Assembly: GCA_016458225.1 (NCBI GenBank)
Contig: JAEMGR010000027.1
Location: 1 to 48,236, forward strand
Reading direction: 5' to 3'
DNA from: Myxococcaceae bacterium JPH2
GTDB taxonomy: Bacteria > Myxococcota > Myxococcia > Myxococcales > Myxococcaceae
Length of the DNA: 48,236 bases
Part shown: one piece after another, positions 11,015 through 48,236 of the stretch
Layout: each line of letters opens with the position of its first letter
Numbering within the stretch: the stretch's first letter is position 1
The notes under the pieces: generated by a model
Database searches by the model: none
The model's input: the letters and a program-made list of their open reading frames with translations, nothing else
Told to the model about the DNA's origin: nothing
Translations under genes and position numbers: made by a program

Positions 11015-11473
11015 TCAGTCTTGCGCGTCGTTCGCTGGGGACACGCGGAAGAGGTTGGCCATTCCTGGCTTGGAGCGGCGCAGCAGGTCCTCCAGCGTGT
11101 AGCGGTCCAGCGTCTCCAGGAAGGCTCTCTGGGCCTCCGCGAGCACGCCCTTGAGTCCACACGCCGCCGCGATGGGGCAGGTGTTCCGCGCGGGGTCGAA
11201 GCACTCCACCAGGTGGAAGTCCGGCTCGGCCGCGCGCACGACCGTGCCCAGCCGGATGTCCCTCGGAGGACTGGCGAGCAGGACGCCGCCCGCCCGCCCG
11301 GGGCGGATCTCGACATAGCCCAGGCTCCCCAGCGTCTGGACGACGCGGACCAGGTGGTGCTTGGAGATTCCGTAGGCGTCCGCCATCTCCTGCGTGGACG
11401 TCGGGCGGTCGGGACGCGCCGCGAGGTAGATGAGGACGCGCAGCGCGTAGTCGGCGTGAAGGGTGAGATGCAA
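11015..11473 (-). CDS. nsrR: Rrf2-family nitric-oxide-sensing repressor NsrR
   Basis: A 152-residue winged-helix regulator. TTG at 11473, 2 nt after the reductase stop, gives the typical family beginning MHLTLHADYALRVLIYLA; no ATG is available. The helix-turn-helix spans about 27-50 (STQEMADAYGISKHHLVRVVQTL), followed by a wing (GRAGGVLLA). Three cysteines at 91, 99 and 105 (ECFDPARNTCPIAAACGLKG) have the C-x7-C-x5-C spacing of NsrR Fe-S ligands. This separates it from IscR and from cluster-less Rrf2 proteins. It is the last gene of the globin-reductase operon, and its predicted operator lies upstream of the first gene, which suggests autoregulation relieved when NO damages the cluster. Confidence 0.93.
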   Translation of the reverse strand: MHLTLHADYALRVLIYLAARPDRPTSTQEMADAYGISKHHLVRVVQTLGSLGYVEIRPGRAGGVLLASPPRDIRLGTVVRAAEPDFHLVECFDPARNTCPIAAACGLKGVLAEAQRAFLETLDRYTLEDLLRRSKPGMANLFRVSPANDAQD

Positions 11474-11475
11474 GG

Positions 11476-12471
11476 TCAGGCGGCTCCGGCGCGGGGCCCC
11501 CCTGGCGGTGTGCTCGGTAGGAAGGCATCCGCGTGGATGTCCTTCAGGGAGAACCCCGCCAGGAAGAGCTTCTTGCGCAGGGATAGCACCCCTTCGACGT
11601 TGCCGCAGAGGTAGGCCCGCCATCCCTGAGGCCGCTTGGGCAGGACGGTGGGGAGGAGCGCCTCGATGCTCCCCTCCTCCACGCCAGCCCCGCCGCCGCA
11701 CAGCACGTTCGGGCGGTAGCGGAAGTTCGGGTGCCGCGCCGCCAGCTCGCGCAGCGTCTCCACGAGGTACAGCCCGCCTGGCTCCCGCGCGCCGTGGAAG
11801 AGGAAGAGCGGCCCGGTATGCCCTTGCTCCAGCGCGTCTCGGGCAATGCCATACAGCGGCGCGAGTCCCGTCCCCGTGCCCGCCAGGAGCAGCGGTGCCT
11901 CGGGGTTGCCAGGTACGTAGAAGCACTCGCCCGCGGGGCCTTGCAGCGCGACCTGCTCACCGAGACGGGCCTCGCGGGCCAGCCAGCCGCTCAGGGTGCC
12001 GCCCGGGACCAGGCGCACGTGCAGCTCCAGGTGTTTCTCCCGAGGCAGGCTCGCCAGCGAATAGCTGCGCGCGAGTCCATCCGCGCGCAGCAGGGTGACG
12101 TACTGGCCCGCGCGATAGTCGAGCGTCGCCTCGGGTTCCAGACGGACGCGCAGCACATCCGTCGTGAGTCGCTCCAAGGCGGTGAGCCGCGCGGGCACGC
12201 GCAGGTCTTGTGCCCCCGCTACCTCCAGGCCCGTGCCCTCGGGCAGCTTGCACATGCAGGCGAGAAAGTAGCTTCGGGCCTTGAGCGTGTCCTTGAGTCC
12301 GACCTGCGCCGCGGAGGGAACGCTGCCCGCCACGCCTCGCATCATGCAGGACTGACAGGCCCCCGCTCTGCACGCGTGGGGAACCGTCACCCCTTGCCGC
12401 AAGAGGCCGTCGAGGACGGTCTCCTCGGGCTCCAGCGGGTACCACGTCGACTCGACTTTCACTCTCGCCAT
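11476..12471 (-). CDS. NAD(P)H-dependent [2Fe-2S]/FAD reductase, probable electron donor of the globin
   Basis: A 331-residue two-part electron-transfer flavoprotein. Residues 1-90 form a plant-type ferredoxin domain with ligands Cys34, Cys39, Cys42 and Cys72 (CRAGACQSC, later ACMC). About 95-190 is an FAD-binding barrel with RSYSLAS, the isoalloxazine motif. About 195-310 is an NAD-binding domain with LLAGTGTGLAPLYG and YLCGNVEGV. The layout matches Hcr-, benzoate-1,2-dioxygenase-reductase- and CDP-6-deoxy-hexose-reductase-like proteins. It lies 18 bp downstream of the truncated haemoglobin and 2 bp upstream of nsrR. It would logically re-reduce ferric globin after NO dioxygenation; this pairing is inferred from context. 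Confidence 0.9.
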   Translation of the reverse strand: MARVKVESTWYPLEPEETVLDGLLRQGVTVPHACRAGACQSCMMRGVAGSVPSAAQVGLKDTLKARSYFLACMCKLPEGTGLEVAGAQDLRVPARLTALERLTTDVLRVRLEPEATLDYRAGQYVTLLRADGLARSYSLASLPREKHLELHVRLVPGGTLSGWLAREARLGEQVALQGPAGECFYVPGNPEAPLLLAGTGTGLAPLYGIARDALEQGHTGPLFLFHGAREPGGLYLVETLRELAARHPNFRYRPNVLCGGGAGVEEGSIEALLPTVLPKRPQGWRAYLCGNVEGVLSLRKKLFLAGFSLKDIHADAFLPSTPPGGPRAGAA

Positions 12472-12489
12472 GGCGTGGGCCCAGGTGCT

Positions 12490-12855
12490 TCAGCGGTTCA
12501 GCACATCCGCGCGGGCACCCTCTGCGACCGCCATCACCTGCCTCACGAGGTCCGCCGATACACCCAGCTCCTCCAGCGTCCCCTGGAGATGCTCCGCCAC
12601 CGCGTTGAAGTGGATGTCATTCAGGCCCCGCTTCACCAGGTGGCGGTGACCCTCGCGCATGTCCTTGCCCGAGTAGTGCGAAGGGCCGCCGCACACCATC
12701 GTCAAGAAGGCCTGCTGCTTCGCGGCCTGCCGGTCCATGTCCACGTCCTCGAAGTAGTGGCTGATGCGGTCATCCGCGAGGACCTTCCGGTAGAAAAGCT
12801 CCACCGCCGCCGCCATCGCCGGCTCTCCGCCCAACTGCTCGTACACGCTCGACAT
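12490..12855 (-). CDS. glbN: Group 1 truncated haemoglobin (trHbN type)
   Basis: A 121-residue 2/2 globin that starts MSSVYEQLGGEPAM, as is common in the family. B10 Tyr22 (ELFYRKVLAD), the conserved phenylalanines, and the proximal His70 (KDMREGHRHL) followed by the IHFNAVAEHL helix are present. Group 1 globins with Tyr-B10 bind O2 tightly and oxidise NO to nitrate when a reductase is available. ATG at 12855 has GGGAG about 8 nt upstream. A longer frame from 12897 would place the start inside the predicted NsrR operator and is rejected. It is the first gene of a three-gene operon with the reductase and nsrR. Confidence 0.95.
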   Translation of the reverse strand: MSSVYEQLGGEPAMAAAVELFYRKVLADDRISHYFEDVDMDRQAAKQQAFLTMVCGGPSHYSGKDMREGHRHLVKRGLNDIHFNAVAEHLQGTLEELGVSADLVRQVMAVAEGARADVLNR

Positions 12856-12890
12856 GTCCGCGCTCCCTCGCCCGAGACCGGGCGCATAAA

Positions 12891-12909
12891 GATGCATTCT
12901 GAATGCATC
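12891..12909. promoter_or_regulatory. Predicted NsrR operator
   Basis: A perfect 9-1-9 palindrome, GATGCATTC-T-GAATGCATC, located 36-54 bp upstream of the globin start. It closely matches the established NsrR consensus (two AAGATGCATTT-type half sites facing each other). The A/T-containing core contrasts with the GC-rich surroundings. Its position next to a -35-like element suggests it overlaps the -10 region, so bound NsrR would block RNA polymerase. Confidence 0.85.
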
Positions 12910-12928
12910 GTTTTGCTCGAAGCGTCAA
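12910..12928 (-). promoter_or_regulatory. Promoter of the NO-response operon (-35 region)
   Basis: On the minus strand TTGACG (12923-12928) is a good -35 element. The -10 region would then fall inside the operator palindrome 17-20 bp downstream, but no exact TATAAT is present. It is placed by spacing and by the operator. Confidence 0.5.
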
Positions 12929-45597: not shown

Positions 45598-48236
45598 TCA
45601 GTCCGGCTTTGTCTCCACCGGAGCGGATGCGTCCAGGAGGCGGAGTCGCTCGTCGAGGAGTTCCACGAGCACTCGGACGTGCGGCTCCTCCAGCAGGCTG
45701 GTGTGGGTTCCTGGCACGGGGCTCACTCGTACGGCTTCGGTGAGCCACTGGGACCAGCCCTCGTCCTCGGCGCGAGCGCTCGGGCGCTGCGTGGCGCGGA
45801 ACAGCTCGGCCGTTCCCGCGTAGCGATTCGCGGGCACGTAGTTGCGATAGGCCTCGCCGAGGCGCTCATGGACGGAGAAGAGGCGCTCGATGTGGCTCGC
45901 GTCCAGTCCGCCCGCGGCGGGGAGTCCGCGCAGGACCTCGATCATCCGTGGGAGCAGCGCTTCGTCCGTGGCGTCGCTGAGGTGCTCCAGTGCTTCGGCG
46001 GGCACGTCCTGGATGGACAGCCCCGCCATCTGCCCGAAGGCCACCAGTCGCGCGAGCGGCGGAGGTGCGGGCTCGGGTTCGGTCGAGGGCGCGAGGCTGT
46101 CGAGCAGCGCGAGGAACTCCACCGTCTCTCCGTGCGATTGGAGCTGCCGCGCCATCTCGAAGGCGACGGCGCCTCCGAGTGACCACCCCGCAATGCGGTA
46201 CGGCCCGCGCGGTTGGACTTCTCGGAGCTGCGCGACGTAGAGGCCGGCGAGTGACTCCATCGTGTTGGGAGGCAACACGCCTCCTTCCAGCCCCGAGGCG
46301 AACACTCCGTAGAGTGGCCACGTCTCTCCCAGGTGCCGGACGAGCTCCGTGTAGCTGAGCACGCCGCCTCCGCCGCCATGGATGAGGAAGAGGGGGTGCT
46401 GCTCGGACGTCCCTGCGTCCAGTCGCTCCAAGTTGGGACCGAGCGCGGCTCGCGATGTGGGCTCCACCCATCGCGCGAGCTGCTCGACCGTTGAGCTCTG
46501 GAACAAGGCGGACAGCGGAAGCACGCGTCCCGTGCGCTCGCGCAGCAGCGACATGAGTCGGACCGCGAGCAGCGAGTGGCCCCCCAGAGTGAAGAAGTCG
46601 TCGTCGAGGCCGACGCGTTCGAGGCGAAGGACTTCGGCGAACGCCGCCGCGACTTGCTCCTCCGCGTGGGTGCGTGGCGCCGAGAAGGGCCGTGCCTGAG
46701 AGGAGAGGTCGGGAGGAGGGAGTGAGTTGCGGTCGACCTTTCCGTTGAGGGTGAGAGGGAGAGCCGGAAGGAAGACGAAGGAGGAGGGGACCATGAACTC
46801 CGGGAGGGAAGCCCGGAGGGAGGAGCGGAGGGAGTCGGAGGAGAGAGGGGAGGAGGAGACGAGATAGGCGACGAGGCGCTTGTCGCCGGGAGAGTCGTGG
46901 CGAAGGAGGACAGAGGCTTCGAGGACGGAGGGGAGAGAGAGGAGAGCGGCTTCGACTTCAGGCAGCTCGATGCGGAAGCCGCGGAGCTTCACCTGGAAGT
47001 CAGAGCGGCCGAGGAACTGAAGGGAGCCGTCGGAGAGCCAGCGAGCCTTGTCACCCGTCTTGTAGAGGCGCTGTCCGGGAGAAGAAGAGAAGGGGTTGGG
47101 GAGGAAGCGCTCCGCGGAGAGGTGAGGAGAAGAGAGGTAGCCCCAAGCGAGGCCGAGGCCACCGACGAAGAGCTCGCCCGGGACGCCAATGGGGCAGGGG
47201 AGGAGCGAGTCGTCGAGGACGAAGGTGGAGGAGAGAGGAAGAGGCCTGCCGATGGGGACGGAGGAAGAGAAGGAGGAGGAAGAGGAGAGGGAGTGGGTGG
47301 AAGAGAAGGTGGTGTTTTCGGTGGGGCCGTAGCCGTTGGTGAAGGAGGAGAGAGGGGGGAGGCGAGAGAGGTGGTTGCGGACGAGAGAGGGAGAGAGGAC
47401 GTCACCGCCAGAGAGGAGTTGAGGGACGAGAGCGAGAGCGTCTGGGTGGTGGAGACAGAGAGAGTCGAAGAGGGCGGAGGTGAGCCAGAGGGAAGAGGGG
47501 GAGTGGAGGCGAATGAGGGAGGCGATGTCCTCGAGGGAGAGAGGGTGAGGGGGAGGAATGAAGAGAGGAGCGCCGTGGAGGAGAGCGCCCCAGATTTCGA
47601 GGGTGGAGGCGTCGAAGGAAGTGGGAGCGAGTTGGAGGAAGGAGAAGGAGGGGCCGAAGCGGATGAAGGAGGGAGAGGAAGAGACGAGGCGGAGGACGGC
47701 CTGGTGAGGGACGAGGACGCCCTTGGGCCTGCCTGTGGAGCCGGAGGTGAAGAGGAGGTAGGCGAGGGAGAGAGGAGAGGAGAAGGAGAGGGGAGGAGAG
47801 GAGGGGAAGGAGTCGAGAGGAGAGGAGTCGAGGAGGAGAGAGGGGACGGAGGAGGAGGGGAGGAGGTGAGAGAGGTGGGAGTGGGAGAGGAGGAGGGAGG
47901 GAGAGGAGTCGGAGAGGAGGAGGGCGAGGCGCGCCTTGGGGAAGGAGGAGTCGAGTGGGAGGTAGGCGGCGCCGGCCTTGAGGATGGCGAGGAGGGAGAC
48001 GAAGAGGTCGAAGGAGCGCTCGAGGAAGAGGGCGACGAAGGAGCCAGGGGAGACGCCGCGAGAGAGGAGGAGGTGTGCGAGTTGGTTGGAGCGCTCGTCG
48101 AGCTGTTGGTAGGAGAGGGAGAGTCCCTGGAAGACGAGGGCGGGGGAGTGAGGGAAGAGGCGCGCGAGGGATTGGAAGCGCTGGTGGATGGAGCGCTCGT
48201 CGGGGAGGGAGGCGTGAGTGTCATTCCACTCGACGA
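45598..48236 (-). CDS. Non-ribosomal peptide synthetase, terminal module A-PCP-TE (5' end outside window)
   Basis: An open frame of 878 codons from the right edge to the stop at 45598. The order is adenylation (starts right after a C-domain-type junction, VEWNDTHASLP), with LLFTSGSTGRPKGV (A3), NGYGPTE (A5), GELFVGGLGLAWGY (A6), RLYKTGDKARW (A7), FLGRSDFQVKLRGFRIELPEVE (A8) and NGKVDR (A10). Next comes a carrier protein with phosphopantetheine Ser in DDFFTLGGHSLLAVRL. Last is a type-I thioesterase with Ser in GWSLGG, Asp in LLDSLAP and His in PGTHTSLLEEPHV. The specificity residues read D-A-L-W-L-G-G-T-F-K, close to valine codes. The module releases the finished peptide by hydrolysis or cyclisation. 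The A-domain DNA is extremely pyrimidine-rich on the coding strand. Confidence 0.95.
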   Translation of the reverse strand, partial: VEWNDTHASLPDERSIHQRFQSLARLFPHSPALVFQGLSLSYQQLDERSNQLAHLLLSRGVSPGSFVALFLERSFDLFVSLLAILKAGAAYLPLDSSFPKARLALLLSDSSPSLLLSHSHLSHLLPSSSVPSLLLDSSPLDSFPSSPPLSFSSPLSLAYLLFTSGSTGRPKGVLVPHQAVLRLVSSSPSFIRFGPSFSFLQLAPTSFDASTLEIWGALLHGAPLFIPPPHPLSLEDIASLIRLHSPSSLWLTSALFDSLCLHHPDALALVPQLLSGGDVLSPSLVRNHLSRLPPLSSFTNGYGPTENTTFSSTHSLSSSSSFSSSVPIGRPLPLSSTFVLDDSLLPCPIGVPGELFVGGLGLAWGYLSSPHLSAERFLPNPFSSSPGQRLYKTGDKARWLSDGSLQFLGRSDFQVKLRGFRIELPEVEAALLSLPSVLEASVLLRHDSPGDKRLVAYLVSSSPLSSDSLRSSLRASLPEFMVPSSFVFLPALPLTLNGKVDRNSLPPPDLSSQARPFSAPRTHAEEQVAAAFAEVLRLERVGLDDDFFTLGGHSLLAVRLMSLLRERTGRVLPLSALFQSSTVEQLARWVEPTSRAALGPNLERLDAGTSEQHPLFLIHGGGGGVLSYTELVRHLGETWPLYGVFASGLEGGVLPPNTMESLAGLYVAQLREVQPRGPYRIAGWSLGGAVAFEMARQLQSHGETVEFLALLDSLAPSTEPEPAPPPLARLVAFGQMAGLSIQDVPAEALEHLSDATDEALLPRMIEVLRGLPAAGGLDASHIERLFSVHERLGEAYRNYVPANRYAGTAELFRATQRPSARAEDEGWSQWLTEAVRVSPVPGTHTSLLEEPHVRVLVELLDERLRLLDASAPVETKPD
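46700..48190. repeat. 1.5-kb polypurine/polypyrimidine tract inside the NRPS A domain
   Basis: The + strand here is dominated by GAG, GGA and AGG units. One uninterrupted purine run spans 47764-47812 (49 nt), and many others exceed 20 nt. On the coding (minus) strand this gives CTC, TCC, TCT and CCC codons, so the protein is Ser/Leu/Pro-rich where the family allows. Composition returns to normal by about 46690 within the same gene. Confidence 0.85.

Follow-up and report, generated by a model that had tools for sequence, protein, structure and literature searches.

A candidate two-component nitric oxide dioxygenase operon in myxobacteria: a truncated globin, a [2Fe-2S]/FAD reductase and an NsrR-like repressor

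If a truncated globin is to destroy nitric oxide (NO), which protein re-reduces its haem? The question is raised by three genes in a 48,236-nucleotide (nt) stretch of DNA, called the window here, from Myxococcaceae bacterium JPH2 (contig JAEMGR010000027.1). On its minus strand a globin gene is followed by a reductase gene and then by a gene for an Rrf2 regulator, with gaps of only 18 and 2 bp. A preliminary description of this DNA had proposed that the three form a split NO dioxygenase under NsrR control, and the genes and gaps that it gave were confirmed. Comparison with other genomes supports the proposal through conserved synteny, a retained NsrR ligand set, recurrence of the operator in distant loci and the existence of fused proteins. 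We therefore read the operon as probably encoding an NO-inducible, NsrR-repressed two-component NO dioxygenase, at a probability of about 0.77.

The promoter-proximal gene (12490..12855, minus strand) encodes a 121-amino-acid (aa) globin of the glbN/trHbN type. Pfam assigns it to Bac_globin (PF01152) with 66.5 bits against a cut-off of 21, and the solved structures closest to it are those of group 1 globins and cyanoglobins (E 1e-34), so that the earlier assignment to the group 1 truncated globins stands on both fold and nearest structures. Residues Q43, Q47 and H70 are kept in 78 of 78 relatives, and Y22 in all 77 that cover the position. Together Y22, Q43, Q47 and H70 align with Y25, Q46, Q50 and H73 in 3aq5, a group 1 globin from Tetrahymena. 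The histidine is presumably the proximal ligand at F8, and the tyrosine and two glutamines would occupy the distal positions B10, E7 and E11.

The second gene (11476..12471, minus strand) encodes a 331-aa reductase with the Pfam domain order Fer2 (14-75), FAD_binding_6 (96-185) and NAD_binding_1 (198-291), which bears out the additional 2Fe-2S domain noticed at first sight. The cluster motif, C-x4-C-x2-C-x29-C, is of the BenC/MmoC/GcoB type, and its cysteines (C34, C39, C42 and C72) are retained in 80 of 80 relatives. The protein falls below every NCBIfam equivalog cut-off, and therefore no narrower name is claimed for it. On the Hmp model NF009805 it reaches 61.8 bits where the cut-off is 432; globin and reductase are encoded by separate genes, as the preliminary description held, and not as the single chain of a flavohaemoglobin. 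The nearest solved relative, 5ogx, is listed as a cytochrome P450 reductase and was deposited with the description of GcoB, which supplies electrons to a separate haem protein, the P450 GcoA (PMC6021390). Because of GcoB and GcoA, a reductase of this class that feeds a separate haem protein has a solved precedent. We considered and rejected membership in an aromatic oxygenase system, because the operon's neighbours in the window are a pseudouridine synthase gene and a nucleoside hydrolase gene.

The third gene (11015..11473, minus strand, TTG start) encodes a 152-aa NsrR-like Rrf2 repressor (Rrf2 Pfam score 124.6 bits). In an alignment to 5n07, D8, R12, N97, C99 and C105 share their numbering with Streptomyces coelicolor NsrR, and C91 takes the position of its C93; PMC5411485 describes these residues as the cluster ligands and coupling residues of that protein. 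The three cysteines (Cys91, Cys99 and Cys105) that had been singled out earlier are thus present, and the cluster-ligand set of NsrR is retained. Among 64 relatives, D8 and R12 occur in all 62 that cover them, C91 in all 64, and C99 and C105 in all 63 covered. These residues suggest a [4Fe-4S], NO-responsive NsrR. Among the 39 family loci that cover the start of the gene, 27 begin with GTG, 12 with TTG and none with ATG, which would fit a repressor produced in small amounts.

Upstream of the globin gene lies a putative NsrR operator, the perfect palindrome GATGCATTCTGAATGCATC (12891..12909), composed of 9-bp arms around one base and located 35 bp before the globin ATG. It agrees with the printed NsrR consensus, gATGyAT-(N5)-ATrCATc (PMC1274295), at 14 of 14 specified positions, just as the preliminary description had stated. 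No other site in the window matches with three or fewer mismatches (0.05 expected), and in the 9.0-Mb genome the site is unique both as a 19-mer at one mismatch or fewer and as a 23-mer at three or fewer. A chance palindrome was rejected on the strength of this uniqueness and of the recurrence of the box in family and distant loci. An in-frame ATG at 12897 falls inside the operator and is unlikely to be the globin start.

The suggestion that the operator overlaps the promoter holds in part. A −35-like hexamer, TTGACG (12923..12928, minus strand), starts 19 nt upstream of the operator, and in 34 of 42 orthologous loci a hexamer one mismatch away from TTGACA is found 19-20 nt upstream of the start of the box. 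Against this, no promoter site passed a strict sigma-70 scan, TTGACG included.

The arrangement is strongly conserved among close relatives. In a sample of 117 genomes of the order, of which 68 belong to the same family, a globin orthologue at least 73% identical is present in 42 genomes (that of JPH2 included), all of the family. In 40 of the 42 loci the three genes lie side by side, and the remaining two (L013 and L019) are broken by contig ends inside the reductase. The box is present upstream in all 42, with 0, 1, 2 and 3 mismatches of 14 in 26, 7, 6 and 3 loci, respectively, at 29-61 bp from the aligned globin start. Across the 41 distinct family sites GCAT in the first half and ATGCAT in the second are fixed or nearly so, whereas the central five positions vary, as do the two outermost positions of the first arm. 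Tree distances correlate between globin and reductase (r 0.61-0.65), globin and NsrR (0.52-0.56) and reductase and NsrR (0.82-0.84), with permutation maxima up to 0.26; these values fit co-inheritance, and shared species history would give them too. One record titled Comamonas sp. KCTC 72670 (L086, BNCN01000005.1) bears the myxobacterial operon and is probably mislabelled.

To what extent does the arrangement reach beyond the family? A genome contig collection (84,980 species) was scanned with a reductase alignment and two peptide patterns, and the best 80 of 194 relatives were kept. Myxococcus xanthus (L084), which carries the operon, is among them. Profile searches found a truncated globin gene upstream in 78 of these 80 reductase loci, the gap ranging from -8 to 212 bp with a median of 13. 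An nsrR-like gene was found in 64 of the 80; it is co-directional and downstream in 49 of them, co-directional and upstream in 3, and divergent and upstream in 12. Counted over the 57 loci that lie outside the family (L093-L149), 55 have a globin gene just upstream and 43 an nsrR-like gene. Judged by their titles, these loci come from Acidobacteria, several proteobacterial classes including Mariprofundus, Hydrogenedentota, Sumerlaeia, Marinimicrobia, Rhodothermaeota and other Myxococcota, and they cover about seven phyla. Loss of synteny in related genomes had been named beforehand as grounds for abandoning the proposal, and synteny proved to be conserved both in the family and across this range. 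In five loci titled Zetaproteobacteria (L120, L125, L126, L134 and L144) the reductase gene is preceded by a tandem pair of truncated globin genes rather than by one.

The operator recurs at these distances as well. Upstream regions were available for 53 of the 57 loci, after omission of two that lack the globin and two whose upstream DNA was too short, and 28 of the 53 contain a box with three or fewer of 14 mismatches, compared with 0.65 expected from dinucleotide shuffles. Most of the 28 regions come from Acidobacteria; proteobacteria, Hydrogenedentota and Myxococcota contribute isolated cases.

A second sample, the 369 genomes of the class to which the genome of L122 belongs (titled Gammaproteobacteria, L122 included), yielded 60 reductase places in 54 genomes at E <= 1e-70. 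A globin gene lies upstream in 51 of them (that of L198 divergent), two are fusions, and seven are neither. The fusions, L195:963-2834 (624 aa, G477) and L200:968-2575 (536 aa, G363), are single chains of Fer2, FAD, NAD and Bac_globin domains that end in a tail with two CxxC pairs. Their globin domains score 37.2 (L195) and 34.3 (L200) bits in Pfam (cut-off 21), and their reductase parts score 310.7 and 292.4 bits on a profile of the operon reductase; the globin parts are more divergent, with 37.3 and 32.5 bits on the operon-globin profile. The domain order is the reverse of that in flavohaemoglobin, with the reductase first and the globin last. Genome G363 also encodes a separate globin-reductase pair (L168). 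A gene fusion classically indicates that two proteins cooperate, and these chains support, without proving, a transfer of electrons from reductase to globin.

The surveys also revealed truncated globins in other protein contexts. In genus g4, L047:3102-5489 (G064) and L048:2866-5427 (G095) encode chains in which a group 1-like truncated globin is joined to PAS and MCP signalling domains, a predicted truncated-globin-coupled sensor. Globins in long open reading frames, 33-38% identical to the operon globin, occur in 11 genomes of this genus, with the domains checked by Pfam in one. The genome of L127 (G151) contains a single 1844-aa frame (C155:43281-45950) that matches the globin portion of the Hmp model six times in succession, possibly a polyglobin, and two globin matches within one long frame were seen in G114 (658 aa) and G166 (698 aa).

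If the operon performs the task of flavohaemoglobin, how are the two systems distributed? Hmp exceeds its cut-off in 7 of the 117 genomes of the order, all of the same family and none with the operon, such that the 68 family genomes divide into 42 with the operon, 7 with Hmp, none with both and 19 with neither. Different species of a single genus (g2) have one or the other: G114 carries the operon, and G011, G068, G073 and G079 carry Hmp. Neither an NsrR relative nor a box with two or fewer mismatches turned up in the Hmp regions of 8 genomes. In the JPH2 genome, searches found no Hmp over the cut-off, no Hcp, no RIC and no NorB at E <= 1e-30; an NnrS search matched neither this genome nor the control genomes, so that no absence of NnrS is claimed.

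The NsrR box is linked to a second NO-related gene in some relatives. Of the 34 genomes among the 117 that have norB, six carry the operon (NorB Pfam-confirmed in four of the six), and in all six the best NsrR-like box lies 127-151 bp upstream of norB, with 0, 2, 2, 3, 4 and 4 mismatches. Eight control genomes, drawn from the other 28 with norB, gave best sites of 4-6 mismatches. NsrR-like boxes precede norB in L065, L066, L067 and L068 (G101, G104, G107 and G097), and a nitrous-oxide reductase-like protein is encoded in the two where this was checked (L065 and L067). The boxes of L065-L068 are a putative extension of the NsrR regulon in some species of the Myxococcus group.

From these parts, their linkage, conserved residues and recurrence we infer NO sensing, electron transfer and NO turnover as follows. 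NsrR with an intact [4Fe-4S] cluster would occupy the box and block transcription. Destruction of the cluster by NO would cause the repressor to leave, permitting synthesis of globin, reductase and NsrR itself (autoregulation). The oxy-ferrous globin would then convert NO to nitrate and turn ferric. For its re-reduction, the FAD of the reductase would accept hydride from NADH (or NADPH), split it into single electrons and pass these through the reductase's own [2Fe-2S] domain to the globin haem, so that a two-electron flavin would become a one-electron donor.

Several observations weigh against this reading. Gene linkage alone is no proof of electron transfer, and the JPH2 genome encodes two further Bac_globin proteins elsewhere. 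N97 of the regulator is kept in only 49 of the 62 relatives that cover it. Among the 57 distant loci, 14 have no nsrR-like gene within the stretch examined, and no box with three or fewer mismatches passed in 25 of the 53 distant upstream regions. On two Methylocystis plasmids (L150 and L151) a globin-reductase pair has a sigma-factor gene a short way upstream, and the gene table, which is incomplete, annotates no nsrR; these pairs may have recruited a different regulator. The separation of operon and Hmp within the family has a Fisher p of 7e-4 that ignores relatedness, and a family genome without the operon (G072) has a partial Hmp match below the cut-off. Outside the family the check covered 50 pair-bearing genomes (48 of 55 outside, plus 2 from the family), many of them metagenome-assembled, and Hmp exceeded the cut-off in one. 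Finally, the two norB boxes with four mismatches are individually weak, each being reached by 11 of 200 shuffles, and one control genome (G111) also has a site with four.

Three alternatives stand beside this reading. The globin might be an NO dioxygenase while the reductase is a general donor that also, or mainly, serves other acceptors, their co-transcription reflecting a shared NO response. Reductase places with neither an upstream globin nor a fusion exist (2 of 80 and 7 of 60, the latter comprising the three weakest matches, below 253 bits, and four strong ones), and because of them the reductase may also serve other partners; the reductase family is, moreover, about 35% identical to aromatic dioxygenase reductases. 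We nevertheless consider a general donor unlikely, because 78 of 80 and 51 of 60 places have a globin gene directly upstream, two fusions exist and no oxygenase gene adjoins the operon in the window. The pair might instead carry out other haem chemistry under NO stress, such as a peroxidase reaction or the reduction of NO, nitrite or hydroxylamine. Globin chemistry is generally promiscuous, and NsrR-type boxes indicate a stress and not a reaction. A peroxidase role is reported for another truncated globin (PMC4319818). This explanation is quite improbable in view of the mutual exclusion of operon and Hmp, itself an NO dioxygenase, among the family genomes searched, and of the description of operon-bearing M. 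xanthus as a strict aerobe (PMC9973013).

A further possibility is that the regulator senses iron or Fe-S status, like RirA, IscR or RisR, instead of NO. Its NCBIfam scores are nearly equal for NsrR (NF008240, 119.8 bits) and RirA (118.8 bits), and both are below cut-off. However, the NF008240 cut-off of 182 bits belongs to a naming model and is not a property of the protein, and it does not define the family, because S. coelicolor NsrR, an NO sensor, misses it too with 88.9 bits (for a 131-residue fragment). In favour of NsrR, the operator agrees with the NsrR consensus, and D8, R12, N97 and the three cysteines correspond to those of S. coelicolor NsrR. In addition, three distant regulators that accompany the globin-reductase pair score higher for NsrR than for RirA, and NsrR-like boxes stand before norB. 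RisR of M. xanthus is a different Rrf2 protein, MXAN_1152, encoded beside suf and with cysteines C92, C102 and C108 (PMC9973013). Identity with RirA or IscR was rejected on the basis of the aligned residues and the scores of the distant partners, and an iron or Fe-S sensor is very improbable here.

The closest known system is itself a prediction from comparative genomics. Rodionov et al. (2005) described Legionella pneumophila glbN-lpg2536, which encodes a cyanoglobin and a hypothetical ferredoxin reductase, as the sole predicted NsrR target in that organism, and suggested Hmp-like oxidation of NO; the same source states that L. pneumophila lacks hmp, hcp, dnrN and nnrS (PMC1274295). Gardner (2012) restates the proposal and suggests FNR-like proteins as common donors for truncated globins (PMC3820574). 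The myxobacterial operon likewise joins a cyanoglobin-type globin to a ferredoxin reductase under NsrR, the two systems being compared by published description, and differs in having nsrR as its third gene. Because of the Legionella proposal, this kind of system was already known as a prediction, and the operon is a further member of it. With Hmp, which is often under NsrR (PMC1274295), it has in common a globin, an FAD/NAD reductase and the same inferred reaction. Hmp is one polypeptide with the globin first, whereas here the globin is of the truncated family and the reductase has an N-terminal [2Fe-2S] domain. GcoA/GcoB (PMC6021390; 5ogx) resembles it in the use of a separate three-domain [2Fe-2S]/FAD/NADH reductase to feed a haem protein. 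The acceptor there is a P450 demethylase and here a globin. Among eukaryotes, Chlamydomonas THB1 is reportedly a truncated globin re-reduced with nitrate reductase as donor. The raphidophyte truncated globin-nitrate reductase (PMC3820574) similarly matches the present proposal in that a flavin reductase re-reduces a truncated globin, and differs in its donor, a nitrate reductase, and in being eukaryotic. A 2024 paper records nsrR and glbN in Hydrogenedentota and Sumerlaeota genomes, and the word 'ferredoxin' is absent from its main text (PMC10866078). In the open-licence literature that we searched, we found neither the myxobacterial operon nor its distribution among phyla nor the fusions described. 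As far as this search extends, the operon in myxobacteria, its occurrence in about seven phyla, the fusions, the exclusion or replacement of Hmp and the link of the box to norB are new.

One feature of the window unrelated to the operon deserves mention. Between 46700 and 48000 the plus strand is strongly purine-rich, with imperfect repeats of the GGAGGA type, perhaps within a minus-strand synthetase gene near the contig end; GC skew is 0.37 and AT skew 0.34 over 46001-48000.

On balance we favour, with less assurance than the reading of the operon itself, a wider view in which a truncated globin and a [2Fe-2S]/FAD reductase make up a second, phylum-spanning bacterial NO dioxygenase architecture. 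It would be equivalent to flavohaemoglobin but separate in origin, would replace Hmp within genera, would often have its own NsrR alongside and would have been fused at least once, reductase first. Smagghe et al. (2008) argued that any haemoglobin could likely scavenge NO if its haem is re-reduced, and that finding cognate reductases would be more useful than further in vitro work on NO and O2 binding (PMC2323109). The operon offers a candidate for the cognate reductase of group 1 truncated globins, found in myxobacteria with M. xanthus among them, and many natural variants and two natural fusions are available for testing this idea. The recurrence of the arrangement in many unrelated bacteria points to how such haemoglobins could be recharged during the destruction of NO.

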